Source: a virus
DNA length: 64,000 nucleotides
Virus record (IMG/VR): IMGVR_UViG_3300032224_000723
Coordinates: 92,994 to 156,993 of that record
Direction: 5' to 3' (one strand)
Positions within the stretch are counted from its first letter, which is position 1. Each line of letters opens with the position of its first letter. The translations under genes were made by a program, and so were the position numbers. The notes beneath the pieces were generated by a model. The model did no database searches. It was not told where the DNA came from and was given only the letters and a program-made list of their open reading frames with translations. This document shows positions 10,840 to 34,838 of the stretch, piece by piece.

Positions 10840-11930
10840 TTCCTTTCTTTGGTGTTAATCGCCAATATCAAAACTTACGTGAAGAACTATTAGAAGTAAT
10901 AGATCAAGTATACAGTACTGGCCAAGTTCTAGACGGTAATTACACTAAAGAATTTGAAAGGCAAATTGCTGCCAGATGCCATAGACGTTATGCTGTGGCT
11001 GTGGGCAGTTGCACTCAAGCATTGATATTTGCCCAGCAAGTATTGTTCCAAGAACCCACAAAAATTCTAATACCCACTGTTAGTTTTGTTGCCACTATCA
11101 ACAGTGTGTTACTAAATGGCAATACTCCTGTGTTTTGTGATGTAGATGATCAAGCACTGATGAATTTAGAAAGCGTGGACTATGCTATCAAAGGATCAGG
11201 TGTTGACGGTATCATGTATGCTAACTTGTTTGGCAATACTGTGGACTACGATAGGTTTACCATGACTGCGGGATTCTTTAACAGTGATTTAAAAGTAATT
11301 GAAGATGCCGCTCAAAGTTTTGGTGCTAGCTACAAAGGTCAACCCAGTGGCAGTTTAGGTGACGTCAGTGTATTAAGTTTTGATCCCACTAAAAATTTAA
11401 ACAACTACGGATCGGGTGGCATGGTTTTAGTAGATGATTTGCCCACTGCTAAATTGTTGCGTGACTTACGTGACAATGGCAAAGAACTAAATCACGACAA
11501 TCCTGGTACTAACAGTAAGATGAGCGAAGCAGATTGTGCTCAAATGTTGGTTAAGTTAAAACATTTTGATGCTTGGCAGCGGCGCAGAACTGAAATTGCA
11601 GAATACTATAACGCAGAGCTGTCTAATTACGTAGATACTCCAAAAACTACAACTGGCACGGTACATGCGTGGAGCAAGTATGTGATTAAAACTGCAGATA
11701 GATCTGCCCTTAAAGAACAATTAAGCAAACAAGGCATTGAAACAAAAGTAAACTATCACACACCATTGTATGATCTGCAGGTAGGATATTCTTACATTAA
11801 CTATGCCATGGACTTGTATAGAGAAGCCAGCGCATTTTGTGTTGAGTGTTTGTCATTGCCTATCTATCCCGAGATGACTGACACGGAAGTAGAACGTGTA
11901 GTTGATGCGATTATTTCGTATACCGCTTAA
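10821..11930 (+). CDS. DegT/DnrJ/EryC1/StrS-family PLP aminotransferase
   Basis: A sugar-type aminotransferase that would transaminate a keto-sugar. Visible features are EDAAQ (161-165), which contacts PLP, and the Schiff-base lysine Lys191 in SFDPTKNLNNYGSGG. The length (369) is normal for the family. No ATG is available: the start is TTG at 10821, inside the end of the epimerase gene. Its 3' end overlaps the convergent gene at 11911 by 20 bases, leaving no room for a terminator between the two. Confidence 0.9.
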   Translation: MAATNVIPFFGVNRQYQNLREELLEVIDQVYSTGQVLDGNYTKEFERQIAARCHRRYAVAVGSCTQALIFAQQVLFQEPTKILIPTVSFVATINSVLLNGNTPVFCDVDDQALMNLESVDYAIKGSGVDGIMYANLFGNTVDYDRFTMTAGFFNSDLKVIEDAAQSFGASYKGQPSGSLGDVSVLSFDPTKNLNNYGSGGMVLVDDLPTAKLLRDLRDNGKELNHDNPGTNSKMSEADCAQMLVKLKHFDAWQRRRTEIAEYYNAELSNYVDTPKTTTGTVHAWSKYVIKTADRSALKEQLSKQGIETKVNYHTPLYDLQVGYSYINYAMDLYREASAFCVECLSLPIYPEMTDTEVERVVDAIISYTA

Positions 11931-13542
11931 AGTATTCCTGTAGCCAAGCCCATTCAAAAGTTAACATCAACGCATCATAGTCTCCGTTAACTGACTCATA
12001 ATACTCCACAGCATCTGCGGCTCCACGCAAACACCATTCAGCATAATCACCTTGAGCTTTGGTTAACCAAGTCTTAAGTCTATATTCTGTTTCTACATTA
12101 GGTTCAGTAACACTAAAATGTTTTAACTTAACGACTTCACGAAACGCAGTACGCCAAGTCATCCATGCACTTTGATTGAAGTGTGCAATGCCGCTAAGAA
12201 TAGGCACTACTTCATGTGCTTTGCTTAATGTAAAGTCTAATCCACTATCGATAGTTTCTAATACCAATCTCTTGTTATATGCAATCATAGCTTGATGTCC
12301 GTAGACTAATCCATTCACGGGATTCTTAGCATGGAAGATATAGTGTTTGGGTTCTTGGAAATAGTCTGGTTGCCAGTGCCAAGGAAAACTCCCACCCAAG
12401 ACTTCCAATTTGGCAAACACAGTTAAAAACCATGGAGTAGTACTAGCTTCGGCTGCTGCCTTGTAAGCATTAGCACGACCATTGACTCCGCGTATCCACT
12501 TAACATCTCTGTTGCTTTGGTATTCAGTGTTCTCAAACCATTTTTGTTCGTCAGGTTCTCCGTTGCTGATGTAGATAATATCCAGCTCTTTTTCAGTGAA
12601 ATGTTGCTGTTCTTGGCTCTTAACGTAGGGATAATCGTATACTTGTGACTGCAAATGTGCCTTAATATCACGGGGTACTACACAGACAGCGTGACTACGT
12701 GTAAATGTCTCTACAGACCTGTCTTTTTCACTCCAAAGACAGGGTTGGTAATAAACAGTTAAATCAGACTGATTGGTAAACAGCGCATACGGGCCAGTAA
12801 ATTCGAATTTTTTAATTTCATCAACTAAGTTATCCGAATCATACTCACAGCGTGGCATGGAATGTCTCTCAACTCGCATGCGGTCACAGTAGTTGATTAC
12901 ATTAAACCAATCCAACAACTCTAGTTCTGCCATTTGACGTTTAAATGATTCCACATGAATGTAAAACGTATCTCCACGTTTTTGATTGCCGCTGGGAAAC
13001 ACATGAACCATTTCTTCTGTCCACTGGGCAGGATGCCAGGTAAAATCAAATGCCGCATAATCACATAGACTACTAATGATCCATACGTACTCTGTGGCGG
13101 CAAGATTTATTATGCGTTTGAATACGTTTAAGTGACTGTCAACATATCTAGTGGATTTTATATTGGACCAAGATTCTCTAAGTAATGCTAGATCAACTTG
13201 GCTTCCAGTATTCATAAAGTCCATGTAGAATATGTCTGTGGCTTGTGCTCTATTTACAATATCCTGTGCTTCAGTGTGCCAATGCCATTGATGTTCTTTA
13301 GTATGTTTAGGAACAAAATAAGTGCCACCATTATCTTGCCATTGACTGGCCCAAATATGTGTGTGCTCTGCTTCCCACGGCACAGGAACAAAGTCGAAGT
13401 CAAAGTCTGTGTAATCGTTTAAGCCGTTAACAAACCAACAGAACTTAGTGCGGCTCTGTGACTGTGCATCTACTAGGTCTCGAGCTGGACGTTCAAATGC
13501 AAATAAGTTGGGTTTTGGTCCTGTATAGAATACGTCAAACAT
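11911..13542 (-). CDS. Repeat protein with a glycosyltransferase-like C-terminal domain
   Basis: A 543-residue protein. The N-terminal half has two similar units at about 33-80 and 151-200. Both contain a W/V aromatic strand, an F-D-F segment, a PxxW, an H(I/V) and a G-x-T/F strand; a weaker third copy may lie at 250-292. The C-terminal part, from about 318, resembles the gene at 27497 (DIIYISNGEPDEQKWF; RGVNGRANAYKAAAEAS; NPVNGLVYGHQ). However, the DGDN found there is replaced by FAKLE at 376-380, so transferase activity may be lost. It overlaps dCMP deaminase by eight bases. Confidence 0.7.
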   Translation of the reverse strand: MFDVFYTGPKPNLFAFERPARDLVDAQSQSRTKFCWFVNGLNDYTDFDFDFVPVPWEAEHTHIWASQWQDNGGTYFVPKHTKEHQWHWHTEAQDIVNRAQATDIFYMDFMNTGSQVDLALLRESWSNIKSTRYVDSHLNVFKRIINLAATEYVWIISSLCDYAAFDFTWHPAQWTEEMVHVFPSGNQKRGDTFYIHVESFKRQMAELELLDWFNVINYCDRMRVERHSMPRCEYDSDNLVDEIKKFEFTGPYALFTNQSDLTVYYQPCLWSEKDRSVETFTRSHAVCVVPRDIKAHLQSQVYDYPYVKSQEQQHFTEKELDIIYISNGEPDEQKWFENTEYQSNRDVKWIRGVNGRANAYKAAAEASTTPWFLTVFAKLEVLGGSFPWHWQPDYFQEPKHYIFHAKNPVNGLVYGHQAMIAYNKRLVLETIDSGLDFTLSKAHEVVPILSGIAHFNQSAWMTWRTAFREVVKLKHFSVTEPNVETEYRLKTWLTKAQGDYAEWCLRGAADAVEYYESVNGDYDALMLTFEWAWLQEYFKRYTK

Positions 13543-13987
13543 CTACTTGTTTTATATCAATGTTGCACTTTTTAAGAAAGTCTACTCCCGCCATGTCCCG
13601 ATAACTATTGCGATAGTATACGCTAGATATACCGCTTTGGTATATAAGTTTGGCACAATCCAAACAAGGAGCGTGAGTAATAAAAATACTAGCATCACTA
13701 CCGCTTTGGCTTGATTTGGCCAGCTTTGCAATCGCATTGGATTCAGCATGTAATACCTCTTTTCTTGTTACTAATTCTTCTATCTTTGTTTGGGGGTGTC
13801 TAAAGACGTATTCACAATTATTATCCCAACCACTGGGCATACCATTATAACCAATGCTAATGATTGTATCATCTTTAACTATAATAGCACCTACATGTAA
13901 ACGTGTTGCTGTACTACATTCAGCAAATATCTCCGCTGTTTTCATGTATGCTTTAATGTGTTTTTCTTTTATGACCAATTTGTCCAT
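13535..13987 (-). CDS. cd: Deoxycytidylate (dCMP) deaminase
   Basis: Converts dCMP to dUMP, the substrate of ThyA. The zinc-dependent deaminase motifs HAE (80-82) and PCLDC (107-111) are intact, and the N-terminal CSTATRLHVGAIIVKD matches phage dCMP deaminases. At 150 residues it is shorter than T4 Cd (193) but covers the domain. It lies among accessory genes and is oriented opposite to DHFR and ThyA. Confidence 0.93.
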   Translation of the reverse strand: MDKLVIKEKHIKAYMKTAEIFAECSTATRLHVGAIIVKDDTIISIGYNGMPSGWDNNCEYVFRHPQTKIEELVTRKEVLHAESNAIAKLAKSSQSGSDASIFITHAPCLDCAKLIYQSGISSVYYRNSYRDMAGVDFLKKCNIDIKQVDV

Positions 13988-14631
13988 TTATCTGTTAGTT
14001 GATGAAATTTTGATAGATCTAGGTGTTTATCACCAGGCATATAATTATTAATCATTTCAACAAGTTGGTTTGCTAGTTCTTGATTGTTGTCTATGCTTAA
14101 ATGATTTTCCCTAGAGTCATGGAACAAAGCAAATTCTTTAGCATTTATTTCATTTAAACTTATAGATGTCAAACTAGGCCAAACATTAATTCCCGCCAAC
14201 GCAGATCTTTGACTCCATGTCCACGGAAAACAATGTAAGTTTACTATCTTTGTGTGTGCCCACCTAACGGTAATTTCTTCAAACCATTTTTTATGTGCCC
14301 AATGTACAAAATCACTGTCGTGTATATATTTGAAATAAAGTGCGACGGCAAGTTCTATTTCATTATTTTTATTCAATTGAGAATGATTAATCTTACCAAT
14401 TGTTTTATTACTAGTCGGAATTCTGTCAGAGTTAGTATGTGCAAATATCACTGCTTCACAGTTTTCAATATCAGCCTCACTAACTGAATTTAAAAAACAT
14501 TTTACAGCCCACCAAGGTTGACCACCGCCGCCATAACAGATTAAATTTAAATTTAATTGTTTAGCTACCATAGTTGGCCAAAATTGATAGTAAGTTGAGA
14601 AACTGTCACCTAATACAATTAAATTTTTCAT
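13969..14631 (-). CDS. SGNH/GDSL-type hydrolase-like protein
   Basis: A 220-residue protein with the SGNH block I motif GDSFS (8-12), a glycine block YGGGG (33-37) and an asparagine in FAHTNSD (64-68). A late DSRENHLS (172-179) may provide the catalytic His. Members are esterases or acyl-hydrolases, often acting on sugars. The spacing of the final Asp/His differs from the classical DxxH, so activity is not certain. It abuts the carbamoyltransferase gene (start and stop share a base) and overlaps dCMP deaminase by 19 bases. Confidence 0.7.
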   Translation of the reverse strand: MKNLIVLGDSFSTYYQFWPTMVAKQLNLNLICYGGGGQPWWAVKCFLNSVSEADIENCEAVIFAHTNSDRIPTSNKTIGKINHSQLNKNNEIELAVALYFKYIHDSDFVHWAHKKWFEEITVRWAHTKIVNLHCFPWTWSQRSALAGINVWPSLTSISLNEINAKEFALFHDSRENHLSIDNNQELANQLVEMINNYMPGDKHLDLSKFHQLTDKWTNWS

Positions 14632-16154
14632 TAGCTAACTACCTTTATTCCATATAGAGTTTCAAATCTATCTGCATCTGCGCGGTCGTTGACCATAGGC
14701 TCACCGCGTATATTTAGACTAGTGTTCAACAACATAGGACAGCCAGTCATCACGTACCACTTCTCTAGTAGTTCTCTTATACCGCTACCGTCTTTGGCGA
14801 CAGTTTGTACACGACTAGATCCATCAACATGCACAATAGCAGGAAATAAATTAGGTCGTTTACACCAAGCAACGGACTGCATGTAAGGACTAGTTTCCCA
14901 TCCCTTGTGCATATCGAAATACTCGTCGGCTAATTCAGCCAATATCACAGGTGCAAAAGGTCTAAACTTTTGTCTACGTTTGATTTCGTTTACACGATCT
15001 TTGATATCAGGACCACGCGGGTCTGCAAGTAAACTTCTATTGCCTAGCGCCCGCGGACCAAATTCTGCACGTCCACTCGCCACACCAACAATGCCAGTAG
15101 TGACGAGATGGTCAAGGGCATCATTAACAGGATACCCACCAGGGATGTCATGACCCAAAAAAGCAGTAGTCCAATTAATACGCTGACCGTAAGCAAGGGC
15201 CGCGGCGCCAAGGCTACTGCCAGCATCACCAGGATTAGGCATAATCCATATATTATCATAATAATCTCCTAAGTTTCTATTTGCTAAACAATTTAGGGCA
15301 ACACCGCCCATGTAAACAAGATTTGTACTCCAGTCAAAACTTTTGGACCGGCGTATAACATTATATATCAACTTTTCCACAATCTCTTGTGCGGCCCATG
15401 CCCAAGCTTCATTATCTATTCTCCAATTACTTGTAATTCCCGTGTGTAAATTATCTCTGAAAATAATTTCTTGGTCATCTTTGATATAAACTCTACTCAA
15501 TATGTCTGGTAGTAACTCTGTAGTTTTTCCATATGCAGCCATACCCATAAGTATGTATTCTTCTTCGTTGGGTTTTAGGCCCACTTCTTTGGTTATTGCA
15601 CTATAAAATAATCCAATGCTGTGTGGATATTTTTGTCCCCACAATTTTTTATACTTTGCCTGTCCTTTTTTATTGTACTCTGCGCCCCAAATACTTATAG
15701 TATCCCATTCGCCAATAGCATCGATGACAACTACTGTAGCACGATTGAACGGACTTGTTTGAAAGCCTGCGGATGCATGACTTAGATGATGATTATAACT
15801 ACTAGTTGATATATTAGTTAAAGGTCGAATCTCATCAGTTACTTGTTTATTTTTTAATTCCGTATACCAACTACCAAGTTGTTTTCGTAAAGATTGTTCT
15901 ACGGTCAATGACTGCCACTGGATACCTTCGCCACTGTATAACCTACGTAGTTGTTTAGCCCATGGGCGTTCGTAGTATGCAATTTCATTAATATCAAATT
16001 TAGAAATTTCTTCAATAAGTCCAGCACTGATATTGGCGTCATTCTTTACTTTGCTATAACGTTCGCTATGGCCAGCAAAAAGTATATCGCCATGGCGATT
16101 TATAACTGTAGCGGCTGCATCGTGAAATCCAGCCGAAATTCCTAATATATTCAT
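14631..16154 (-). CDS. NodU/CmcH-family carbamoyltransferase
   Basis: Transfers a carbamoyl group from carbamoyl phosphate to a hydroxyl of a sugar or natural product, via an adenylate. The N-terminal ASKHA/Kae1-like domain starts ILGISAGFHDAAAT and has the metal-binding HHLSHA at 122-127. The C-terminal YrdC-like domain has the signature GRAEFGPRALGNRSLLADPR at about 362-380. At 507 residues it is slightly short but complete. The acceptor is unknown, though neighbouring sugar genes suggest a glycan. Its ATG overlaps the stop of the 33-residue gene upstream. Confidence 0.93.
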   Translation of the reverse strand: MNILGISAGFHDAAATVINRHGDILFAGHSERYSKVKNDANISAGLIEEISKFDINEIAYYERPWAKQLRRLYSGEGIQWQSLTVEQSLRKQLGSWYTELKNKQVTDEIRPLTNISTSSYNHHLSHASAGFQTSPFNRATVVVIDAIGEWDTISIWGAEYNKKGQAKYKKLWGQKYPHSIGLFYSAITKEVGLKPNEEEYILMGMAAYGKTTELLPDILSRVYIKDDQEIIFRDNLHTGITSNWRIDNEAWAWAAQEIVEKLIYNVIRRSKSFDWSTNLVYMGGVALNCLANRNLGDYYDNIWIMPNPGDAGSSLGAAALAYGQRINWTTAFLGHDIPGGYPVNDALDHLVTTGIVGVASGRAEFGPRALGNRSLLADPRGPDIKDRVNEIKRRQKFRPFAPVILAELADEYFDMHKGWETSPYMQSVAWCKRPNLFPAIVHVDGSSRVQTVAKDGSGIRELLEKWYVMTGCPMLLNTSLNIRGEPMVNDRADADRFETLYGIKVVS

Positions 16155-16252
16155 TTATAGATAAATGGATCTCGTTTACGTAGTTCTTTTAGTTTTTTAC
16201 GATATCGAATTTCTAATCGAATTCTGTTCCAAATGTTTCTTAACCAGTTCAT
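16151..16252 (-). CDS. 33-residue basic peptide in the radical SAM block
   Basis: A short open frame read from the sequence. ATG (complement of 16250-16252) to TGA gives 33 residues, starting MNWLRNIWNRIRLEIRY and ending KRDPFIYK. An AAGGA-type site sits about nine bases upstream. Its TGA overlaps the carbamoyltransferase ATG, and the preceding gene stops five bases before its start, so it fits the operon exactly. It is amphipathic and highly basic, with a distinct non-basic DPFIY end. It could be a small structural or regulatory protein or a peptide substrate. No function is assigned. Confidence 0.65.
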   Translation of the reverse strand: MNWLRNIWNRIRLEIRYRKKLKELRKRDPFIYK

Positions 16253-16257
16253 TGATT

Positions 16258-17385
16258 TTATCCTTCAGTAATATTTATAGTGCTACTGTAGTCATACCCC
16301 GGTTTCATCATATCAATCTGCATTTGTTTGTATCCAGAATCAGCCCAACTATAATTAAACGTATTTGACACACCGTTAACTTCAATTTTATAGATGTCTA
16401 AGTGTGAACCTAATATGTTCCATATAGTTTGATAGTCTTCAGTACCAAAACTCTCTTTTAACATAACTTGGCCAATTGGCAAATATCCTAAACTTAACTT
16501 AGGATCCATTGGATCTCTTCCGTTGTCAATTAACCAATCATGAAATCTTTGTTGTTCTGTATTGTGCCAAGGCACTGGGCCACCGAGCTTAACATCGTTG
16601 CCCCATTCAACATCAAATTCCCCGCTATAATATTTTAGTTCAGTTATGGCTTCACATACTGTGTCTGTTAATTCTGGTGCACCTTCATCTCTAAAAACTT
16701 CAAATAGTGTTTTACCTATTTGTGTCCAATGCATATATACACCGCCTATTACACGATCATATCCATTTTGTAAAAATAACTGTCTATGATTATCTGTTAA
16801 ATCAAATCTAGGACTATTAATAAATGTTGTAATTTGACTGGGTCGTACCCAATAAGGAACTGTGGTTAATTTACGTTGGCTCAGTATTAAATTTTCTATT
16901 TCGTGACAAATGTTATTCAATTGTCGTATTGCATATTTTGTTTCGTAGTCAGCACGACGATAGTAATCACTTAGATTCCAAACTGTGCCTTGCAACTGTT
17001 CAAAATGATTGTGTAGTTTGTTCAACAATTCATGATTTGGTCCCAATGTACCCACATTAAATCCTTCTGTGGCTGTGTCAGGTGCTAATAAATTGTCGGG
17101 CTGTATATCCAAATCAATTTGATAATCTGGAAAATAGTTATTGATTGTAACTACATGCATTTGCAATTCTGTGCATAGGTATTCTAAACTACGGGAAGTT
17201 TTTGGAAAACCCATAAAGCAAAAATTCTTTTCTAATAAATTATTAGACTGCAACAAACCTTTAAGTGCATGTGTCCAATCCCTTGCTAGTTCATTGTCTG
17301 CAGGTTGAATTACATAATCAATTTGATCGTTATAATTTAATGGATTACGTAGTACTACTTTAATTGATTGATTGCCACCACTCAT
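16258..17385 (-). CDS. Unknown protein of the radical SAM block (375 residues)
   Basis: I do not recognise this protein. It has a predominantly helical middle (LLNKLHNHFEQLQG ... AIRQLNNICHEIENLI) and a C-terminal part with DVKLGGPVPWHN, FHDWLIDNGRDP and GYLPIGQV. Comparable elements occur in the same order in the 269-residue protein at 20226 (ILHKSVETLVG, LVHELHYCLHLVQNGI, DVKLQNPF, LLDFFLKHDP, GYPVVGKV), so the two are probably distant homologues. No cofactor motif is visible. It overlaps the next radical SAM gene by 26 bases. Confidence 0.75.
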   Translation of the reverse strand: MSGGNQSIKVVLRNPLNYNDQIDYVIQPADNELARDWTHALKGLLQSNNLLEKNFCFMGFPKTSRSLEYLCTELQMHVVTINNYFPDYQIDLDIQPDNLLAPDTATEGFNVGTLGPNHELLNKLHNHFEQLQGTVWNLSDYYRRADYETKYAIRQLNNICHEIENLILSQRKLTTVPYWVRPSQITTFINSPRFDLTDNHRQLFLQNGYDRVIGGVYMHWTQIGKTLFEVFRDEGAPELTDTVCEAITELKYYSGEFDVEWGNDVKLGGPVPWHNTEQQRFHDWLIDNGRDPMDPKLSLGYLPIGQVMLKESFGTEDYQTIWNILGSHLDIYKIEVNGVSNTFNYSWADSGYKQMQIDMMKPGYDYSSTINITEG

Positions 17386-18658
17386 ATACGTCCGGTCTTT
17401 GTTTTAGTATGTCCGCCATGGTATAAGTATCACCGCGGATCTTCTCTAATTGTAACACACGGGCTTTACCTTTTGCAAGACCTTTGGCATATTCATCAGG
17501 CCAAGATTCAGCGAAAGTGGGTCTGGTTTTTAGCTGAACTAAGATATCCTGTAGGGCGTTGCCAGAAATCTTTAACTGGTCAATCATTTCGTCTACCCAA
17601 GGATGTAATAGTTCCCGGGGTAGTGCTAACGGTGACATAACTATGTCCGGTGTAAAACTAAACACCACTTTTGCTAAAACATCTACATCTAACTCTTGTG
17701 CGAGTCTCCCAATATGTGCAACCTCGAACATTCCGGGCAAAGTGAGCGTAAAGTCAATTCGGACTTGACGACTGTGACGTCTGATTTTAAGTCCCTCACG
17801 GAAGTTTTCAAGCCACGTAGTATAGTCAAGGCCTGTTCTAATATATTCACCGATTGCGCCTGTTCCGTCGAGGCTTGCACATATCTGCCAATCCCGAAGC
17901 CTGCTAAGAATATCATTGTAAAGATTGATACCTTTATAATTAACCCTAGAAAGGTTAGTGTTGTATCGAGCATAAACATTTGGTCCGTCTCCCAATTCTA
18001 TTATCCGTTTCATATAACGCCAATGTTGTTCGTACATTAAAGGTTCACCACCAACCCAATATACTTCTTCAACACGGTGTTCTTCGACGGCTTGACTAAA
18101 CTCTGCCTCAATTTGTGTATCTTGAAACTGTTCAATCTGTTTTTTGATATCAGGCTGCATCCAATTATTCTTTGGATTATGCCAATTGATCATGTTGTGT
18201 TGGCGTTGCTCGCTTTCCCAAGCACTGCTTAACATGTCACCGCACATACGACATTTGAAATTACATAAGTTACTAAACCTATAATCCCAACTCACAGGCT
18301 TCATTGTAGTATAACCTGTAGTGTCTGTACTTGCGACTACTTCATTGTACTTATTCCCAAATAAACTATCAAAATAACTGCGGTAAACGGCAGTGTTTAA
18401 AAGTTTGTCATTACATACTTCACATTCAGGCAAAGTTTCACCTGCCATCATACGCCTACGCACAGACTTCATGTGTTCACTGTTCCAATGTTCGTCTAAT
18501 GTGATAGGTATATATTTGCCAGTGCCAGCACTTGTGTCAATATACTGCTGAAAGTTTTGTGCAGGCTCTCTACTGGCGCAACACATTCTACGCTCAGTTT
18601 GTGGACTTAGATATGTATGGGTCCAAGGGGCCAAACATAGTGTATTAGGTTTTGTCAT
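17360..18658 (-). CDS. Radical SAM protein with N-terminal twitch region
   Basis: A 432-residue enzyme that would cleave S-adenosylmethionine at a 4Fe-4S cluster. The cluster motif CNFKCRMC is at Cys132, Cys136 and Cys139, and YWVGGEPLMY follows as the GGE element. The N-terminus carries a second cysteine set (Cys8 in CLAPWTH, Cys26-Cys27, and Cys79/Cys82 in CEVC), the arrangement of N-terminal twitch radical SAM proteins that hold an auxiliary cluster. The substrate is unknown. It overlaps the oxygenase gene upstream by 14 bases. Confidence 0.88.
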   Translation of the reverse strand: MTKPNTLCLAPWTHTYLSPQTERRMCCASREPAQNFQQYIDTSAGTGKYIPITLDEHWNSEHMKSVRRRMMAGETLPECEVCNDKLLNTAVYRSYFDSLFGNKYNEVVASTDTTGYTTMKPVSWDYRFSNLCNFKCRMCGDMLSSAWESEQRQHNMINWHNPKNNWMQPDIKKQIEQFQDTQIEAEFSQAVEEHRVEEVYWVGGEPLMYEQHWRYMKRIIELGDGPNVYARYNTNLSRVNYKGINLYNDILSRLRDWQICASLDGTGAIGEYIRTGLDYTTWLENFREGLKIRRHSRQVRIDFTLTLPGMFEVAHIGRLAQELDVDVLAKVVFSFTPDIVMSPLALPRELLHPWVDEMIDQLKISGNALQDILVQLKTRPTFAESWPDEYAKGLAKGKARVLQLEKIRGDTYTMADILKQRPDVYEWWQSIN

Positions 18659-19163: not shown

Positions 19164-19167
19164 TTGC

Positions 19168-20229: not shown

Positions 20230-21035
20230 TCAAATTCCAAACTATCAAATTCTAATTCTTTAATATTTAACACCACATGTAGATCATCTAGATTAGTAAC
20301 TTTACCAACAACAGGATATCCTGTGTAATGCAATATTTTTTCTGTCCCATGTAATTCAACAAACCCAGGATCGTGTTTTAAAAAGAAATCTAAAAGTTCA
20401 TTGTGTTGGGTGAATGTACCGTAATTAGTTTGTGCTATATTGATACCTGGTTTAACCATGTCATGAAATTTACAAGTCTGTGTTATGTTAACCCCATCTT
20501 GTTCTTGAAAAATTTGTAATGGGCCGTGCCCCACAAAAGGATTTTGTAATTTAACATCCCCGATATTTAAATCATTTTTAAATTTAAAATCTAGGGGTAG
20601 ACTAAATCCTTCGTCGTTGAACCATTCTATTTGTAACCATGATCCTCTAGTAGATTGAATTCCGTTTTGAACTAGGTGTAAACAGTAATGCAACTCATGT
20701 ACGAGATAGTCATGCTTTGCAGGGATATCGTCAAAACCATAGCCGACTAATGTTTCTACACTTTTGTGTAATATCGGTGCAATATCATCATCAAAACCTG
20801 TATGTAAATCCCACAGAGGGGATTCGAACTCCCATGTCCACTTGAATGCTTTTTTGGCCTTAACGATTAATTCTTTCATATACTTGTTAGTGTATTTTAG
20901 TGGGTCTCTGAATACAGGCGGGCTATGTGAATAATTTTCCTCAATTAATTTAAAATAATTATTTCCGACTTCTGAGTCTTCTATTTCTAATTTTAATGTT
21001 GGAGCATTTCGAAATTGAACTAAAATTCTACTCAT
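20226..21035 (-). CDS. Unknown protein of the radical SAM block (269 residues)
   Basis: Not a recognised family. It appears distantly related to the 375-residue protein at 16258, since several short segments occur in the same order. It contains a His-rich helix (HDYLVHELHYCLHLV), many aromatic residues and an acidic end. It sits between two radical SAM genes with 4- and 8-base overlaps. It could be a partner protein or a substrate of the radical SAM enzymes, but nothing in the sequence decides this. Confidence 0.75.
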   Translation of the reverse strand: MSRILVQFRNAPTLKLEIEDSEVGNNYFKLIEENYSHSPPVFRDPLKYTNKYMKELIVKAKKAFKWTWEFESPLWDLHTGFDDDIAPILHKSVETLVGYGFDDIPAKHDYLVHELHYCLHLVQNGIQSTRGSWLQIEWFNDEGFSLPLDFKFKNDLNIGDVKLQNPFVGHGPLQIFQEQDGVNITQTCKFHDMVKPGINIAQTNYGTFTQHNELLDFFLKHDPGFVELHGTEKILHYTGYPVVGKVTNLDDLHVVLNIKELEFDSLEFE

Positions 21036-22251
21036 AACCCATAGCCTTTGCTATCTCTGGATGTGTATCCATAAAATTCTGCCGACGATATTCGTCTGCT
21101 TGTTTCATTCGTCTTAAAAATTCTACCCCATCACTGCCTGGTCCATTTTCAATAAAGTTGATTAAATTATCTACTTCTTGTTGAAATTTATTAGATTTCC
21201 AAAACGTTAATTTTAATTTATTTAACACAAGTTCTTTTGCCTCAGGGGTCATATGTTGTATACTCATATGAGGAGGACTGTGTAGCATATTAAAGTAAAT
21301 ACTGCCAAACTTTTTAGTAATTGCCCACGACAACAATTCATCTAGATAGTAAACATTCTGAATGTTAACAGTAAAACAAAGTTGCGTAGTTATGTGACTT
21401 TGATTGGTATGCGCTGCCAATTGGAAGGAAGGCCAAGAAGCTTGGATCACTGCATCAATGTTTGCATTTGCTTCATCCCATTTTGCACCATATCGTTCAT
21501 ATTCAAATCTGTTCCCAACATTGTCTATACTAAAGGCAATGTCAACTCGTTTAAATTTGCTCCAAATTTTAAAGAACTTGTTGGGACTAACTGTAGCATT
21601 AGTGTTGTAATGTATGTCAATATTTTCAGCGTACCCGTGTTCGCTTGCATACTCCAACAAATCCCAATGCTCTTGTATCAACCATGGCTCACCACCAGTA
21701 AACTCAAAGTATTTGATGTTGGGCAACAATGATTTTAAGTTTTCCCAGAACTCAGGACTTTCTTCAGGCCACGTTCCAGCCTTGAGCCACTTATATGCAA
21801 TGTGCGATTTTTTATCAGCACCTGGGGGCAAGTAATCCATTTCTTCTGCAGCCCACTTGCTACTTGACCATGAACCACAGATACGACATTTTAAATTACA
21901 GATATTACCTAGTTTAAGATCAATGAACCATAACTGATCAGGAGTATCGTTTGCCCAATCGACTTCTGCGTATAGATCTTTTAATCGTATACGACTGTTA
22001 ATTCGTTTGCTTATACGTCCAGCAGCTTCCTCATCCCAACATTGTTGACAAGTTGCAGGCTTTTCTCCAGCACGAAATTGTCTACGTAGATCCTGCATAT
22101 ACTCACTTTTATATGCATCCTCTAAGGTATTTTGTCTTAGATCAATAACAGGAATTTCTTCTCTTGCTAAACAGCAAGGGCGAGTAGTGCCCATGGGACT
22201 GGTTTCTATACTAATCCATGGCAACATACAAATTGAATCAGGTAGGGTCAT
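21028..22251 (-). CDS. Radical SAM protein with N-terminal twitch region
   Basis: A 407-residue protein. The cluster motif CNLKCRIC is at Cys118, Cys122 and Cys125, with the FTGGEPW element after it. The auxiliary set is Cys8 (CMLPWISIE), Cys26-Cys27 and Cys68/Cys71 (CQQC). Its C-terminus (HPEIAKAMGYE) matches that of the distant gene at 60927 (HSDIAKAMGYT), and both share FDYERYGAKW/FEYQRNGAIW-like segments, so they are paralogues. It overlaps its neighbours by 8 and 14 bases. The substrate is unknown. Confidence 0.88.
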   Translation of the reverse strand: MTLPDSICMLPWISIETSPMGTTRPCCLAREEIPVIDLRQNTLEDAYKSEYMQDLRRQFRAGEKPATCQQCWDEEAAGRISKRINSRIRLKDLYAEVDWANDTPDQLWFIDLKLGNICNLKCRICGSWSSSKWAAEEMDYLPPGADKKSHIAYKWLKAGTWPEESPEFWENLKSLLPNIKYFEFTGGEPWLIQEHWDLLEYASEHGYAENIDIHYNTNATVSPNKFFKIWSKFKRVDIAFSIDNVGNRFEYERYGAKWDEANANIDAVIQASWPSFQLAAHTNQSHITTQLCFTVNIQNVYYLDELLSWAITKKFGSIYFNMLHSPPHMSIQHMTPEAKELVLNKLKLTFWKSNKFQQEVDNLINFIENGPGSDGVEFLRRMKQADEYRRQNFMDTHPEIAKAMGYE

Positions 22252-23581
22252 AATCTTTTAATGGTTGTAGTTCTGTAAAAGTTGTCCAAAAGTCTTCATT
22301 ACGTATTCTGTCTAAGTCTGCCACTTCTTTTTTAAATTTTGACCAGTGATATATTTGACTTTGATCGTTCATTAAGTTTAGTATGCTTTTAAATCCATTG
22401 GTAGCACGTTTTAACGTATCCTGTGGTTCCAGCCAAGCAATGTGCTGTTCATATGCAGGCGTAATTGTTTGTTGTTTAAACCAGTCTGGGAATATATCTA
22501 CCCTATACCAATCAGGACTTTGACATATATTTACATTAAAGTCTTTGGCGTGAATCAATCCTTGTTCAGTCCATGCTTTATGGAAATCCAGCACATGAAG
22601 TACATTCATCGCACTGATAGTTGCGCTGACATAAAAATCCACATGCGGTACTTGTTCCATCATACGACGTCGATTGTCTAGTGTTTGTGACCAATCTGTG
22701 CCTTTACGTATTAATTCTGCACGTGGCCCCATGGCATCTAAACTAGCGCCTACACTTACATTTTTAAAATGTTTCCAATACTCAAATACGTGTTTGTCTT
22801 TAAATCTCAATTCACTGAAGTTTGTGTTATACTGTATGCGAACATCTGTTTTACCTGCTTCGATTAACTTCTCTAATAAGAAATAATGTTCCTTCATAAT
22901 AAGAGGTTCGCCGCCTGCAAAATACACTTGTTCAAGATATGGTATATGCGGCATCATTTGTTCAATCATTGAATCTTCGTCGCCTGCTGTGTATTCTACA
23001 CGGGCCATGTCCCTGCCTAATACATCAGGTTTACGATCGTAGAGTTTAACATGGTCGTTGTACCAGTTACTGCTAAAGATAGGACCACAACTACGGCAAC
23101 TAAAATTACATAAGTTGCTAAATCTCACGTCCCAATATCTAATTTTAAAGTCTGGGTGTGTTCCATCAGGTTGTGTGTTATCCACTTCTTTGATATGATG
23201 ACCGTAATTACGATTACTATCGTATCGCATACTAAACGCACCATGTTGTTCCTGCTCATAGCACTTGTTACATTCTTTACAAGGTTTATCCTCAAGCATG
23301 TTTTGTCGCATTAAACGGTATGGCTCTTGATTCCATACTTGTTCCATAGTACTTTTACGTAAGTCACCTACAGGATGCCAGTAATCACTTAAACAGCACG
23401 GGTATGCACGACCATCTGGAAAAGCATGCATGTGCATCCATGGTAACATACAAAACGATTTACTCTCGGTTAGTCGTTTCCATTGTGTATCTGTTAAATC
23501 GGACTTATCAGCAAAATAAGGAGCACGTTGATTATAGTCGTAGCCCTTATTGTAAAAACCTTTTACGTCTTTATCTGTCAT
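22238..23581 (-). CDS. Radical SAM protein with N-terminal twitch region
   Basis: A 447-residue protein. The cluster motif CNFSCRSC is at Cys158, Cys162 and Cys165; YFAGGEPLI follows. The auxiliary region is textbook: CMLPWMHMHAFPDG (Cys44), Cys62-Cys63, and Cys101, Cys104 and Cys107. It has about 40 more N-terminal residues than the paralogue at 21028. The proteins at 17360 and 22238 share the VRYW/WDYRFSNLCNF pattern around the motif. It overlaps neighbours by 14 and 4 bases. Confidence 0.88.
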   Translation of the reverse strand: MTDKDVKGFYNKGYDYNQRAPYFADKSDLTDTQWKRLTESKSFCMLPWMHMHAFPDGRAYPCCLSDYWHPVGDLRKSTMEQVWNQEPYRLMRQNMLEDKPCKECNKCYEQEQHGAFSMRYDSNRNYGHHIKEVDNTQPDGTHPDFKIRYWDVRFSNLCNFSCRSCGPIFSSNWYNDHVKLYDRKPDVLGRDMARVEYTAGDEDSMIEQMMPHIPYLEQVYFAGGEPLIMKEHYFLLEKLIEAGKTDVRIQYNTNFSELRFKDKHVFEYWKHFKNVSVGASLDAMGPRAELIRKGTDWSQTLDNRRRMMEQVPHVDFYVSATISAMNVLHVLDFHKAWTEQGLIHAKDFNVNICQSPDWYRVDIFPDWFKQQTITPAYEQHIAWLEPQDTLKRATNGFKSILNLMNDQSQIYHWSKFKKEVADLDRIRNEDFWTTFTELQPLKDYDPT

Positions 23582-24957
23582 AATGTATTGTACCAGTTTG
23601 CGAGCGCAGGAAATGTTTCTGTAAAGTTTTTACCACGACGTTGATCATATTGCATGTAGAAGTTTTTAAAGTCACGTTGTAGCACAATTTGCGACATTGC
23701 TTCTTTGTGTGCTTCACTGACTTCACGAATATAGTCCAACAATCTTGTTAATTGATTCCATTCGTACTCATGCATTTCTGAGCCGTGCCTATAACTGTCA
23801 GCAAAGTCATTCAATTTGTTGTAATACATTGATCGGATATCTTCAGGAAATACAGTCAGTGATTGAAAACTAGGAAAGCGTAATATATTTAATGAAAAAT
23901 TAATTGCATCTTTTCCGTATTCACGTTTCCAATTCATAACCATTTCTAGGAAACTGTCCAGACTATCGAGACACAAAGCATTAATGGTACACATGACATG
24001 AAGCCCGCAAAATTTTCCGCTGTCCAGTAATCGTTCTACATTGTTGGCCCAGTCGTCGAATACAAGCCCGTCTCGAATATATTCTGCTTGTAGACTCATT
24101 GATTCGTTACTGGTGTACAAATCAACTTCAACACCATCAACTGCTGCCAACAATCTATCAATATCTACGTCTGTGCCTAGATTACTGTTAATGGCTAGTC
24201 GCGTCGTCGACTTGCCTTTATTGTTCTTAAACCACTCAATGAGGTTCCACGTGTGGGCGGACATGAGAGGTTCACCTCCTGTGATTCTAAGTTCTTTAAG
24301 GGTTCTATGGAGGTCTGATTCCCACCATTTGAAGAATGCTTCCACATACGGATTAGTCTCACTGAATTTATAAAGTTGACTGCTATCATGAGTGTGAGTA
24401 AAATGGTTCCTACCGTCACTAACCAATCCTGTGTAGGATCCATTTTTTCTGATGTCATTAACCCAGGTACTACTAAATGCAGGGTTACAATAAGAACAAG
24501 CGAACTGGCAAGTGCGGTCAAAAGCAATTTCAAGAGTTTGAAGGTCGATGTCTGTCGTGGGGTCTGATTTGAATGCATGGTCTAAGTCCTCATCTGAATA
24601 TATTACTGTTTTGTATACACGATCGCTAATAGGCACTGGCACATCTACACCAGTATATTTTGGATCTTTGTACATATCTTCAATCTTCCAGCAGTATTCA
24701 CAACCACTGGGACGTTCTCCTGCTTGCATTTGACTACGTTCAAATTTCTTTTTAGTAGTGTTATGCAGAGACTTGGGATTAAATTTAATTGCTTCAACAT
24801 CAACTGCATGTGGCAATGGATGATGGCAACTGGTTGTTTGCCCGCTGCCTAACCATATAGTGGCATTGTACCATTTTGCTCCGCAGAAACTTGCCGACTT
24901 AATGTCAATGACTCTGCGTTTGTATTCTAAATCTGTTTCGTTGGGTAACCTAGCCAT
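23578..24957 (-). CDS. Radical SAM protein, long subtype
   Basis: A 459-residue protein. The cluster motif is CQFACSYC at Cys150, Cys154 and Cys157, with LRITGGEPLM after it. The N-terminal set is Cys25 (FCGAKWYNATIWLGSG), Cys44 in a CHHP and Cys86/Cys89 (CEYC). This CHHP and the segment AIKFNPKSLHNT mark a subtype shared only with the gene at 26109. The tail DQRRGKNFTETFPAL also matches that gene (DKRRGTGFIRTFPEM). Substrate unknown. Confidence 0.87.
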   Translation of the reverse strand: MARLPNETDLEYKRRVIDIKSASFCGAKWYNATIWLGSGQTTSCHHPLPHAVDVEAIKFNPKSLHNTTKKKFERSQMQAGERPSGCEYCWKIEDMYKDPKYTGVDVPVPISDRVYKTVIYSDEDLDHAFKSDPTTDIDLQTLEIAFDRTCQFACSYCNPAFSSTWVNDIRKNGSYTGLVSDGRNHFTHTHDSSQLYKFSETNPYVEAFFKWWESDLHRTLKELRITGGEPLMSAHTWNLIEWFKNNKGKSTTRLAINSNLGTDVDIDRLLAAVDGVEVDLYTSNESMSLQAEYIRDGLVFDDWANNVERLLDSGKFCGLHVMCTINALCLDSLDSFLEMVMNWKREYGKDAINFSLNILRFPSFQSLTVFPEDIRSMYYNKLNDFADSYRHGSEMHEYEWNQLTRLLDYIREVSEAHKEAMSQIVLQRDFKNFYMQYDQRRGKNFTETFPALANWYNTL

Positions 24958-26125
24958 TCACATGCTCCGACAATTTTGATAATGTTGTTTTCCAATTAAT
25001 GTTTCTTAGCGAATCTATTTTTGTTAAATAATCTCTCCAGTCGTCACCACTTGTTATTCTTGCAGTTTCTAATTTAGAAATAATAGAATTTTTAATGTAA
25101 GCATAGTCATCCGAGATTGTTTGTAGATGATCTATAGCAGGTTGTTTTAATTCTTGGTCAATTGACTCTAAAGATAAAACATTCCCTCCGTAACTTTGGT
25201 CGCCCGCAAATGTTATGTATATCTCAATTGGATCTGTATTAGGTAATTCTGAGAAATGCGTGTTTTTCCAATCAATTATATCTTTTATATAAAACATATT
25301 AACCTTACTAACTGTTACCCCTAATTGTAACCACATATTAGGAATCACCGAGTTTAAATTTCTAATGTTAAACATATTTTCTTGTACTTGAGACCATTTT
25401 GCCGGATATCTAATATATTCAAATTGATTACCTATTGCATCTATACTAAAATATATTTTTACTAATTTCGTTTTCTGCCATAGTTCTACGGCTTCATCTG
25501 TAGGAAATACTGTGCCATTTGTATTATAACTCACCGTCACTTTACTTAGGTCACAACCTTGATGTTCCATCTCTTTTAAAACATTGACATGATCGTCTGT
25601 TAATAACGGTTCACCTCCTTGAAAATGCAGTAGTTGAATTTTATTCAATGGCAAAGACTTGTATATTAAATTACCATTTCCAGACACTTTTACTTCACCA
25701 CCTGTTATAGGATATCCCAGTTTTTTATAATCAGGCTTCCATAACGAACTGTATCTAGGGCCGCAAGTAACACATTTTAAATTACAAACATTTTCACAAT
25801 TATAAGAAAGACTTATTAATTCAACAGTATCATCTATGGTTATTTTATTTTGTTCAAATACCTTTTGTTGTCCTATTCTGTAGCTTTGTGTATTATGTTT
25901 TTCATGTATTAAACATCTATTACATTCTGGCACAGTTTCAATTGAATTTCTTACATAATTTAAATAATCATTGTTATAGAAATCCACTACATCATAGGCA
26001 TTATTACTGAATACTTGATCACAACACATAGCAACAAGCGCAGATTGTTTATCAACTTTTTCAATATACAGACCTTTTTTATATAAAGGACAATCAATTT
26101 TTGTTTCGTTATGTTGTTTTAGCAT
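24950..26125 (-). CDS. Radical SAM protein with N-terminal twitch region
   Basis: A 391-residue protein if started at the ATG at 26125. The frame continues to a TTG at 26152 inside the upstream gene, but the ATG gives a normal short overlap of 17 bases. The cluster motif CNLKCVTC is at Cys114, Cys118 and Cys121, with LLHFQGGEPLL following. The auxiliary set is Cys12, the CC at 34-35 and CNRC at 68-71. It is more AT-rich in codon choice than its neighbours by eye, which may indicate a separate origin. Substrate unknown. Confidence 0.85.
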   Translation of the reverse strand: MLKQHNETKIDCPLYKKGLYIEKVDKQSALVAMCCDQVFSNNAYDVVDFYNNDYLNYVRNSIETVPECNRCLIHEKHNTQSYRIGQQKVFEQNKITIDDTVELISLSYNCENVCNLKCVTCGPRYSSLWKPDYKKLGYPITGGEVKVSGNGNLIYKSLPLNKIQLLHFQGGEPLLTDDHVNVLKEMEHQGCDLSKVTVSYNTNGTVFPTDEAVELWQKTKLVKIYFSIDAIGNQFEYIRYPAKWSQVQENMFNIRNLNSVIPNMWLQLGVTVSKVNMFYIKDIIDWKNTHFSELPNTDPIEIYITFAGDQSYGGNVLSLESIDQELKQPAIDHLQTISDDYAYIKNSIISKLETARITSGDDWRDYLTKIDSLRNINWKTTLSKLSEHVNG

Positions 26126-27503
26126 GATACTCACATTCTTTCCAAAAATCAATCATCTCTGGAAAGGTTCTTATAAAGCCAGTTCCCCTGCGCTTATCGT
26201 GTTCATTAAAGAACTTATAGAAATTAGCTTTTTGCATTTTAACATACTCTGGGTCCAAATTGCAACCTTCACGCATATAATCAATCACACGTTGTAGGCG
26301 TTGTGGTTCATAATCTTTAAATCCTTTAAAAGGCTTGTCTTCTGTTTCCAATTTACTAACCATAAACGCCCATGTTTCTTCTAATCGATCCACATAACTT
26401 TCAGGTAACAACTGAACACTTTGCCATTCTGGATTACGAAGTATGGGAGTATCAAACCAAACACGTTGATATGTTTTGCTGTATATTTGTCTAAGTCCAT
26501 GTATGCAATTAATCAAATCGTGAAAACCTGTGACGTTCAAATTGTTCATGGTAATGATAAACGTCAAACTACTTCTATTAGGTACTTCATTTAAGAAACG
26601 ATTAACATTTTCCCAAAGACGTTCAAAGTTTAAACCGTCTCTTGCATATTCTGCTTTAAAGAATGTAGCATCTACACTAACATACTGCATAAAATGTTCC
26701 AAGTACTTAGGTTCGTTTGTGGTCAATTTTTTTACACAATCTAAATATTTTTCAAACAACTCAGGCTCAACACTAAAATTGCTAGTAACGTTTAGATGTA
26801 ACTTAGGACTAGGATTGGCCAATACATAATCAAATACACGATATGTATTTTTATCCATCAACGGTTCTCCGCCTGTCATCCTAAAATGTTCTAAGTTAGG
26901 ATATAATGTAGGCCACCATTCCCAAAATGCTTCTACATAGGGATTATACTCACGGGCAGGTATGAGGCGCCTGCGGCCAACAAAATGATCAGGAGCATTG
27001 TGAGGCACCAAAGTAGGATATGCACCAAGTCTAGCAACTTCATCGGCCCATGAGCTGCTAAACTGTGGACTGCAATAGCTACACCGCAGATTGCAAGCGT
27101 GATTGAAATTAACTTCAACATAACTAGGAATAACATTGTCTTCGAGTCCTGTACTATTTTTTATATTTTCAAAATCCACTGCGGCCCAAGGCTCACCGCT
27201 ACGATAGTGACGGTCGCTTAGGTTACCTAAATCTTCTTGTGTCCAACAATAATTACATTCTTGTGGACGTTCGTTTTTTAACATCAACACACGTTGCTGT
27301 TTCTTATGCTCAGTGTTATGTAAGGCTGCAGGAGTTAGTTTAATTGCATCAGCGTCAATTTGATGTAATGGAGGATGATAGCAACTGTTGTTTAGTCCTG
27401 TGGGTAAGTGTAGGCTTACCTGTTTCCATTTAGCCAAGCAAAGCGCGGGACCCAACTTAGATTTAGCATCTTCTGCGTCTGTTAGAAATACGCTTTTTAC
27501 CAT
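26109..27503 (-). CDS. Radical SAM protein, long subtype
   Basis: A 464-residue protein. The cluster motif CNLRCSYC is at Cys137, Cys141 and Cys144, with FRMTGGEPLM after it. N-terminal cysteines are Cys22 (LCLAKWKQVSLHLPTG), Cys41 (CYHPPLHQIDADAIK) and Cys83/Cys86 (CNYC). It is the closest paralogue of the gene at 23578, sharing the CxHP, LHNT and RRGxxFxxTFP segments. The two are separated by a radical SAM gene of another subtype. It overlaps the transferase-like gene by seven bases. Confidence 0.87.
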   Translation of the reverse strand: MVKSVFLTDAEDAKSKLGPALCLAKWKQVSLHLPTGLNNSCYHPPLHQIDADAIKLTPAALHNTEHKKQQRVLMLKNERPQECNYCWTQEDLGNLSDRHYRSGEPWAAVDFENIKNSTGLEDNVIPSYVEVNFNHACNLRCSYCSPQFSSSWADEVARLGAYPTLVPHNAPDHFVGRRRLIPAREYNPYVEAFWEWWPTLYPNLEHFRMTGGEPLMDKNTYRVFDYVLANPSPKLHLNVTSNFSVEPELFEKYLDCVKKLTTNEPKYLEHFMQYVSVDATFFKAEYARDGLNFERLWENVNRFLNEVPNRSSLTFIITMNNLNVTGFHDLINCIHGLRQIYSKTYQRVWFDTPILRNPEWQSVQLLPESYVDRLEETWAFMVSKLETEDKPFKGFKDYEPQRLQRVIDYMREGCNLDPEYVKMQKANFYKFFNEHDKRRGTGFIRTFPEMIDFWKECEYHAKTT

Positions 27504-28423
27504 CCTTCAGCCTTACGAATAATTTCCATTTCTGACACTGTGGTGCCTAAATTCTTCTGTACTTTACTATAGTGATGTTTAAAGAAACGACTTTGCTCCG
27601 CTGTCATATCTACTATGGGCAATGCTAGCCTTTGTTGTAATGTTTGTCCTAAACTTACACAAGCAGATTCAGTGTCTCGTTGGAATGAACTCCATAATGA
27701 TGCCAATTGATCAAAGTCTTGCACTAATCGATAATCCCATTCACGTAGCATTGTAAGATATGTCCCTAGCCTTGCGCCATATATGGCCCAGAATCCGTTG
27801 TCAACATCCATGCCTACACTTTGCCATATACACAAGTGATCGTAGTTTCTAGCATGTACTTTTTGTTCAAATTCTTGCAGGCTAGGTTTCTTGCCTCGGT
27901 CCAAGCACATCTTAACACCTTCGCGGAATCCTGCTCTCCATGCCTGAAAGGGTGTGGCATTGGGATAAGTTGTGCTGTAACAATCATGCATAGGAACGTA
28001 TAATGGATCAAAGCAAAACTCAACCACAGTTTCATCTCTACCATCTGTGTTTTCATGTGTACGCATGTTGTTAACAAAGTCTTTGGTCCAGCAACTAAGT
28101 CCACCGTTGCCGTACATTAATCCATTAATGTGGTTACGTGCTTTCCAACGGAACACACAATCTTTGTTATTGTCATTTAATTTTAATTGTAGATTAAAAA
28201 ACTCAGGGTCAGGTATGTTGTCACCATCAATTAATACAAACCTATCTGTGTCACTGGCTGCTGCCGCGGCTTTGTGTGCGGCATCACTGCCTTTAACACC
28301 ATCTACACGTTTGGCCCATGGAACCATATTTTGAATCTTAATCCAAAATTCTTCCTTTTTAGGTTCGTCATAAGTTAAAAATATGCAGTCAAGATCTGCA
28401 ATGTCAATTAGTTCTTCTGTCAT
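27497..28423 (-). CDS. Glycosyltransferase-like protein with DGDN motif
   Basis: A 308-residue protein that looks like a GT-A-fold nucleotide-sugar transferase. A strand DCIFLTYDEP opens the protein, AHKAAAAASDTDRFVLIDGDN (DGDN at 66-69) gives the DxD-type metal site, and NHINGLMYGNGGL follows. The same domain ends the 543-residue protein at 11911, which has lost the DGDN. The sugar donor and acceptor are unknown. It lies at the upstream edge of the radical SAM block. Confidence 0.75.
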   Translation of the reverse strand: MTEELIDIADLDCIFLTYDEPKKEEFWIKIQNMVPWAKRVDGVKGSDAAHKAAAAASDTDRFVLIDGDNIPDPEFFNLQLKLNDNNKDCVFRWKARNHINGLMYGNGGLSCWTKDFVNNMRTHENTDGRDETVVEFCFDPLYVPMHDCYSTTYPNATPFQAWRAGFREGVKMCLDRGKKPSLQEFEQKVHARNYDHLCIWQSVGMDVDNGFWAIYGARLGTYLTMLREWDYRLVQDFDQLASLWSSFQRDTESACVSLGQTLQQRLALPIVDMTAEQSRFFKHHYSKVQKNLGTTVSEMEIIRKAEGW

Positions 28424-28757
28424 AATATTCTATATCTGGATATGTTTCATTTTCTTCGAGTAGCAATGCCGCATTATTTTTAACAACTCGGTAACCTTTA
28501 TTACTTTTAATTAGACGTGAAACAAGTCCGTTATTTTGTACAATTTTTTCTAATACACCATTAACTACATGATACCTATAGTACATATCATATGTTTCTT
28601 TATCGACCACAACATATTGGGTCGATTCTGGATGTTGTACCATAGTACACAAATAAATGTCACCCAATTCATTATAATGAAGACGATACTCTATGGGTTC
28701 ATCCTCTGTTACAATCATTGAATTGAGTGCTTTAAGTAATTCCGATTCGCTGTTCAT
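28404..28757 (-). CDS. Phage hypothetical
   Basis: A 117-residue protein with mixed beta character (IEYRLHYNELGDIYLCTMVQHPES; YVVVDKETYDMYYRY) and a C-terminal DIEYYDRRTN. The pattern resembles small proteins from T4-like cyanophages. No function is suggested. It overlaps the genes on either side by 20 and 26 bases. Confidence 0.75.
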   Translation of the reverse strand: MNSESELLKALNSMIVTEDEPIEYRLHYNELGDIYLCTMVQHPESTQYVVVDKETYDMYYRYHVVNGVLEKIVQNNGLVSRLIKSNKGYRVVKNNAALLLEENETYPDIEYYDRRTN

Positions 28758-30689: not shown

Positions 30690-30742
30690 AGACAAATAAT
30701 AACATCTAATAGATCAAAAGTCAATTGATTTAATCTACCAAA

Positions 30743-34828: not shown

Positions 34829-34838
34829 ATTTGATCCA

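Follow-up and report, generated by a model that had tools for sequence, protein, structure and literature searches.

The stretch of DNA analysed here, referred to as the window, comprises 64,000 nucleotides and corresponds to positions 92994-156993 of the 156,993-bp virus record IMGVR_UViG_3300032224_000723. Its central feature is a minus-strand block (11911-28423), in which seven genes for radical S-adenosylmethionine (radical SAM) enzymes are packed together with genes for a carbamoyltransferase, putative glycosyltransferases and several accessory proteins. Past the block, the same strand continues in overlapping frames through further putative glycosyltransferase genes, g303, the fibre-like genes fib1 and fib2 (together fib), a tail fibre with an intramolecular-chaperone-like (IMC) domain, g342, a 4,465-aa protein and baseplate genes, which places the block in the late tail region. 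The features of the block and its flanks are given below, where N-twitch marks radical SAM proteins with an N-terminal twitch domain, core and slot refer to the fixed and variable positions of the module described further on, bits are scores against the model NF033640, and pLDDT (predicted local distance difference test) refers to AlphaFold2 (AF2) models.

8106-9617, plus: rS1, N-twitch radical SAM protein outside the minus-strand block; 206 bits
9865-10839, plus: NAD-dependent sugar epimerase/dehydratase; PF01370, E 1e-43
10821-11930, plus: DegT/DnrJ/EryC1 sugar aminotransferase; PF01041, E 3e-79; convergent next to the module in several relatives
11911-13542, minus: GTx1, two-part accessory protein; C-terminal half homologous to GTx2
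13535-13987, minus: deoxycytidylate-type deaminase, accessory; PF00383, E 2e-20
13969-14631, minus: SGNH/GDSL-like hydrolase by sequence motif; variable slot, largest slot family
14631-16154, minus: NodU/TobZ-type carbamoyltransferase, core of the full module; PF02543 and PF16861; phrog_1601, E 1e-95
16258-17385, minus: U162, conserved, possible radical SAM partner; pLDDT 82
17360-18658, minus: rS2, core N-twitch radical SAM protein; 291 bits; 67 orthologues
18645-19163, minus: 2-oxoglutarate (2OG)-oxygenase-like protein by sequence appearance; variable slot, weak homologues in other slots
19168-20229, minus: rS3, divergent radical SAM protein with N-terminal SPASM-like cysteines; variable slot; PF04055 and PF13186; 54 bits
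20226-21035, minus: U202, variable slot; present in some relatives at 49-56% identity
21028-22251, minus: rS4, core N-twitch radical SAM protein; 354 bits; 75 orthologues
22238-23581, minus: rS5, core N-twitch radical SAM protein; 402 bits; 78 orthologues
23578-24957, minus: rS6, core N-twitch radical SAM protein; 268 bits; 80 orthologues
24950-26152, minus: rS7, N-twitch radical SAM protein in the slot between rS8 and rS6; 203 bits; most relatives are without it
26109-27503, minus: rS8, core N-twitch radical SAM protein and sole one of the minimal module; 312 bits; 90 orthologues
27497-28423, minus: GTx2, core; GT-A-type putative glycosyltransferase with invariant DGDN; pLDDT 81
28404-28757, minus: g284, small variable protein, core by synteny
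28732-29619, minus: GT287, core; GT8/glycogenin-like putative glycosyltransferase
29579-30403, minus: GT295, core; putative glycosyltransferase with invariant DxD (D103/D105)
30372-30695, minus: g303, small core protein, always between fib and GT295; possible fibre assembly factor
30743-31681, minus: fib1, Thr-rich (17% Thr) fibre-like protein; candidate substrate
31691-32629, minus: fib2, fib1 paralogue, 72% identical; candidate substrate
32643-34202, minus: IMC tail fibre, flank; tail-fibre PHROG; Peptidase_G2, E 2e-4, below cut-off
34235-34858, minus: g342, conserved flank marker of the tail/baseplate region; phrog_11259, E 1e-68; homologue in fEgEco12 annotated 'baseplate protein'
60927-62351, plus: rS9, N-twitch radical SAM protein outside the block; 305 bits

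A Pfam-type domain search of the whole virus record returned 13 Radical_SAM hits. Open reading frames and domain hits agree with the initial annotation of this DNA, which had counted nine radical SAM genes in the window: seven in the block, all on the minus strand (starts at 17360, 19168, 21028, 22238, 23578, 24950 and 26109; span 17360-27503), and two on the plus strand, at 8106 and 60927. The CxxxCxxC motif is present in 9 of the 32 window proteins of at least 250 aa, against 0.04 expected from shuffled sequences. Eight of the nine enzymes pass the curated cut-off (170 bits) of NF033640 ('twitch domain-containing radical SAM protein') with 203-402 bits, rS3 being the only one below it. The auxiliary twitch cluster of NF033640 members lies N-terminal to the radical SAM domain, and the second N-terminal cysteine set that had been read from most of the sequences is real. 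Pairwise identities among the paralogues are 20-34%, as befits a diversified set rather than simple copying. An A-type Fe-S carrier is among the virus's own genes (PF01521, E 2e-20; L001:17975-18316, record positions), fitting a high Fe-S load. QueD-like (PTPS; L005:5238-5741) and QueE-like (L005:6312-7217) genes are found in the same record.

The other genes of the block are assigned with varying firmness. Of the enzymes earlier described as interleaved with the radical SAM genes, the carbamoyltransferase has both its N- and C-terminal Pfam domains above cut-off (E 4e-48 and 4e-34), while the 2OG and SGNH labels describe the appearance of the sequences: the 2OG-like copy in the window matches neither Pfam nor PHROG, and the SGNH copy has no Pfam match, with a relative reaching PF13472 at E 2e-4, below cut-off. 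GTx1 and GTx2 are homologous (E 4e-6) and both GT-A-like. The initial annotation listed two related unknown proteins; U162 and U202 show no detectable relatedness (E 0.18). The closest PDB folds to the GTx2 model are the SunS/ThuS glycocin S-glycosyltransferases, RmlT, TarS and pp-GalNAc-transferases, all weak. The sole match of the GT287 profile is glycogenin-1 (E 0.02, weak), and GT295 has no PDB sequence match. No solved fold in the PDB matches the U162 model, and its matches in BFVD are phage proteins only, one of them from Agrobacterium phage Atu_ph07. A 768-aa viral protein in BFVD (A0A6J5T9P3) has one U162-like half, and its other half could name a U162 partner. The small proteins g284 and g303 (107-117 aa) are not precursor-like, and the genes of the block overlap, with one gap of about 100 bp at 16154-16258.

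The block belongs to a conserved and strictly ordered module. A scan with rS5 yielded 46 viral loci at 69-79% identity, and a scan with the GTx2 family matched at least 599 stretches, of which at least 535 are relatives (viral contigs). Across the 126 loci that were read, which represent 115 unique contigs, some near-identical, the gene order is fib - g303 - GT295 - GT287 - g284 - GTx2 - rS8 - rS6 - rS5 - rS4 - rS2 - U162 - carbamoyltransferase, and neighbouring core pairs keep this order in every locus where both were found; rS2 and rS4 are swapped in a deeper lineage from metagenome-assembled genome (MAG) bins (L133-L135). Overlaps of a few bases, seen throughout the window's block, extend to the relatives, in which the median gap is -14 bp and 92% of 1,140 neighbouring pairs overlap. 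In the five core radical SAM groups (67-90 distinct sequences per group), conservation is 100% for all three CxxxCxxC cysteines and also for the N-terminal ligand cysteines, which number at least four. Hence the two outcomes that would have spoken against the initial annotation, homologues scattered singly and loss of the cluster cysteines in most relatives, were not observed. Between the core genes lie slots of changing content, including SGNH proteins, a 344-aa family, extra N-twitch radical SAM proteins, oxygenase-like proteins and a B12-radical SAM protein; in the window they hold rS7, rS3, U202 and the 2OG-like protein. In one module-bearing phage, a flavin-dependent tryptophan halogenase (PF04820, E 2e-59; L014:17670-19244) is encoded downstream of U162. 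The module occupies a single site, with tail fibres on one side and a convergent thymidylate synthase on the other, and no module of the window's type was found among 50,697 records of cultured phages.

Using g342, the gene before the fibres, as an independent marker for a survey of the locus, we found fib between g342 and GTx2 in 36 of 36 loci with GTx2 in view. Five phages (L294, L284, L219/L297, L296/L298 and L299) have an empty site, at which the fibres directly meet a convergent ThyA or ThyX gene (the L299 junction being inferred from two overlapping stretches). Their whole records, the three largest of 58, 102 and 168 kb, hold no fib, no GTx2 and no N-twitch radical SAM protein above cut-off; g342 and the IMC fibres are kept. 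Three further phages (L290, L291 and L295) carry a minimal form at the same site, consisting of a fib homologue, g303, GT295, GT287, a ~190-aa gene, GTx2, another GTx-like gene and, as the only radical SAM gene, rS8, followed by ThyX; the gene calls for g303 and the ~190-aa gene do not cover all three phages. The fib proteins of this form are divergent yet homologous (hmmsearch 2.5e-12 to 1.6e-6; hhalign 2.8e-14), and one phage (L292/L293) has an intermediate form. The smallest unit observed is thus fib, g303, glycosyltransferases and one radical SAM enzyme (rS8), gained or lost whole, and in most sampled phages it has grown by addition to five core radical SAM enzymes, U162, the carbamoyltransferase and swappable slots. 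On the fibre side, fib and g303 are the sole genes gained and lost alongside the enzymes. Because fib comes and goes with the enzymes while the other fibre genes stay, it would be the best candidate for their acceptor or substrate, a matter of linkage and not of proof.

A second radical SAM system occurs at the same locus in other phages. In Atu_ph07 and Sinorhizobium phage Phosso, g342 and an IMC fibre are present with a different radical SAM cluster directly behind, and this cluster includes a fibre-like protein whose C-terminus is DFCHSSCHASCHNSRSRR or DYCHTSCHASCHSSRSRR; two unrelated fibre-like proteins of the viral contig G016, encoded at the same site, terminate in CHAQCHSSCHNSRGRR. These endings define a 16-residue C-terminal tag, CHxSCHxSCHxSRGRR. 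A collection scan with the pattern CHxxCHxxCHxSRxR returned at least 120 viral stretches (L301:26119-27009, L302:30415-31335, L300:5432-6945, L303-L422, L423:7060-7620 and L424:7025-7561 being tag loci), and 140 of 142 in-frame tags are exactly C-terminal. Positions that the pattern leaves free are conserved as well (S-13 91%, S-9 80%, G-3 91% and R-1 99%, in 99 proteins), and the tag is carried on at least eight unrelated protein bodies. Of the 99 tagged proteins, 69 have a radical SAM reading frame no more than 500 bp away, and 85 have one no more than 2 kb away. The usual neighbours are a SPASM radical SAM protein, a 260-aa partner and a cupin; among the 120 loci listed, an IMC-type fibre gene is found at 66, the same main radical SAM gene at 86, the same 260-aa partner at 81, and the window's module at none. 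Four cultured jumbo phages have the tag, among them Burkholderia phage FLC6, on gp72, and Pseudomonas phage pPa_SNUABM_DT01, on PA10_00065, both with adjoining cupin and radical SAM genes. As in the CXXX-repeat and His-Xaa-Ser systems, a radical SAM gene stands next to a protein in which short Cys or His-x-Ser units recur; the differences are that the tag is C-terminal on phage fibre-like proteins, and that the enzyme scores 18-36 bits against HxsB/HxsC and TIGR04115, below cut-offs of 268-370 bits. The tagged fibre-like protein is the probable substrate of this second system, which shows that phages of this kind place radical SAM enzymes beside fibre-like proteins at this locus, without revealing how the enzymes of the window act.

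The radical SAM groups have a deeper bacterial history. In a tree of 114 N-twitch radical SAM proteins (quick LG+G4, containing long branches), each core group forms a clade (support 91-100 by group) and each contains or joins chromosomal sequences of Bdellovibrionota, so the five paralogues are older than these phages. A Bacteriovoracaceae chromosome (L138:4824-16820) has eight N-twitch radical SAM genes, with rS6, rS2, rS4, rS5 and rS8 types in tandem, flanked by ribosomal-protein rplU/obg and lgt genes, and the Bdellovibrionia genome G005 has 33 N-twitch matches. Links of radical SAM genes with GTx2 (homologues of 38-41% in L161 and L183) and with carbamoyltransferases (about 31-34%, in L139, L145 and L165) recur in bacteria, and none of the bacterial arrays examined had a visible fibre gene at its side. 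The Halobacteriovorax homologues lie in one operon with SIS/GmhA-like and cytidylyltransferase-like genes and genes for multi-TM transferases, and in a Pfam survey of bacterial neighbourhoods GT2 was commonest (6 of 114), a count without a control from which we claim no enrichment. Bdellovibrionota have S74 adhesins (PMC10769870), and it is speculation on our part that trimeric fibres of this kind are the shared substrates.

We read the module as a late, virion-linked tailoring system that combines glycosylation of a virion fibre with radical tailoring, with a probability of about 0.6; phages that carry it would probably assemble a decorated fibre and afterwards alter it chemically. GT295, GT287 and GTx2 would attach sugars to fib or assemble a chain on it, and rS8 would perform the first radical step. 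Each of rS6, rS5, rS4 and rS2, as separate ancient specificities, might then add one radical C-H step on the glycan or on fib residues, with epimerisation, oxidation, deoxygenation, cross-linking or similar reactions as candidates. The carbamoyltransferase and the slot enzymes may cap, finish and diversify the product, and the phage itself could supply the A-type Fe-S carrier. The outcome would be a chemically diverse fibre surface, serving host recognition or protection. Synteny, the all-or-none link to fib and the parallel system with its visible tag support the proposal of the initial annotation, in which a phage pathway tailors a glycan, a peptide or a component of the virion; chemistry and substrate are unproven. 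Several points weigh against our reading. The virion status of fib, which has no informative PHROG or PDB relative, is unproven, and its co-gain could mean that fib and the enzymes share one function without being enzyme and substrate. The loci were sampled from the most similar end of the searches. The array in L138 has neither fibre nor glycosyltransferase nearby, so the radical SAM chemistry need not require fib. The fold match of GTx2 is weak despite its invariant DGDN (template modelling score about 0.3; Foldseek E 7e-4), no core member has a close characterised homologue, and we know of no radical SAM product in the NF033640 subfamily.

The strongest rival is that the module produces or alters a glycan, free or on the host surface, or a small molecule, during infection, for instance to block superinfection or change a receptor, with fib merely a neighbour. 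The sugar genes at 9865-11930, the carbamoyltransferase, the gene content of the Halobacteriovorax operon and the GT2 count would all suit such a role, which we consider doubtful since the module is in every case found inside the late tail operon and accompanied by fib, comes and goes with this fibre-like gene, and shows no membrane flippase or polymerase in the block. There is a smaller chance that the chemistry is confined to peptide, in the manner of ribosomally synthesised and post-translationally modified peptides, with the radical SAM enzymes modifying amino acids in fib or in g284/g303, and with glycosylation as a separate trait: twitch/SPASM radical SAM enzymes often modify peptides, halogenase and oxygenase genes occur in the slots, and the tag system found at this site seems to act on a protein tail, but even the minimal module does not separate the glycosyltransferases from rS8, and fib tails have no conserved Cys. 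Hypermodification of phage DNA, by which the radical SAM enzymes, the glycosyltransferases, the carbamoyltransferase and the deaminase at 13535 would decorate bases, is unlikely and the least probable of these readings, for although radical SAM, glycosyltransferase and carbamoyltransferase genes occur in known base-modification pathways and QueD-like and QueE-like genes lie elsewhere in the record, TGT/DpdA (PF01702) is absent from this possibly incomplete record, the gene at 7249 is a thymidylate synthase beside DHFR and not an obvious hydroxymethylase, no link to replication genes was seen, and the co-gain with fib would go unexplained. Returning to fibre tailoring, it is possible, though we would stop short of calling it probable, that radical SAM enzymes mature tail fibres as a general, so far undescribed part of phage biology, which exists in at least two independent forms at one locus: one acts on fib through glycans and multiple radical SAM enzymes, the other through a short C-terminal CHxS tag, carried by unrelated fibre-like proteins, that recruits SPASM enzymes.

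Viral radical SAM enzymes are usually filed as auxiliary metabolic genes. In the aminoglycoside pathways of BtrN, NeoN, AprD4 and TobZ, radical SAM enzymes with auxiliary clusters and an O-carbamoyltransferase act on sugars, as proposed here; their auxiliary domain is C-terminal, and their substrates are free antibiotics. SunS/ThuS, the best, though weak, solved fold match to GTx2 (GT-A), belong to systems with a glycocin-like peptide precursor, of a kind not seen in this block. NF033640 shares with eight of the window's nine enzymes the conserved N-terminal auxiliary-cluster cysteines and CxxxCxxC motif, and is known as a sequence model without a function; here, five orthologue groups of its members recur as an invariable set within one phage operon. 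Multi-radical SAM marine phages resemble this virus: T4-like TARA_ERS488813_N000010 has 12 radical SAM genes and an A-type Fe-S carrier (PMC5332604), and the host-recognition clusters of pelagimyophages, with variation near tail-fibre genes, hold radical SAM cassettes (PMC7029224). In the parts of these two reports consulted, radical SAM genes are counted, and synteny, a minimal form, empty sites, a fib linkage or the enzyme set are not given. In the open literature searched (preprints and most subscription journals lie outside it), we found no account of the ordered module, of its minimal or empty forms, of the fib link or of the CHxS tag, and queries for the tag and for modification of virions by radical SAM enzymes returned nothing relevant; within that scope, the system is undescribed, as the initial annotation had supposed. 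If fibre tailoring is correct, hundreds of aquatic phages would make chemically modified fibres by radical chemistry, the reading of host range, receptor binding and virion stability from sequence would change, and a first class of substrates could be assigned to the NF033640 subfamily. The idea can be tested directly in the cultured phages that have the second system.

Some further observations concern the records and the flanks. Phage contigs bearing the module, whole or in part, appear to have been binned into bacterial or archaeal MAGs (L133-L137, L152, L156, L163 and L179), among them Pelagibacter, Rickettsiales, Pacearchaeota and others. The 4,465-aa tail-region protein (window 36507-49904) has YHYH and FG-GAP matches, and homologous regions occur in relatives with and without the module. 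At the other end of the window, a DUF2201 metallopeptidase/VWA-like protein is encoded with an AAA ATPase (1729-3033 and 207-1316), related to those of jumbo phages such as PA5oct and Phosso.

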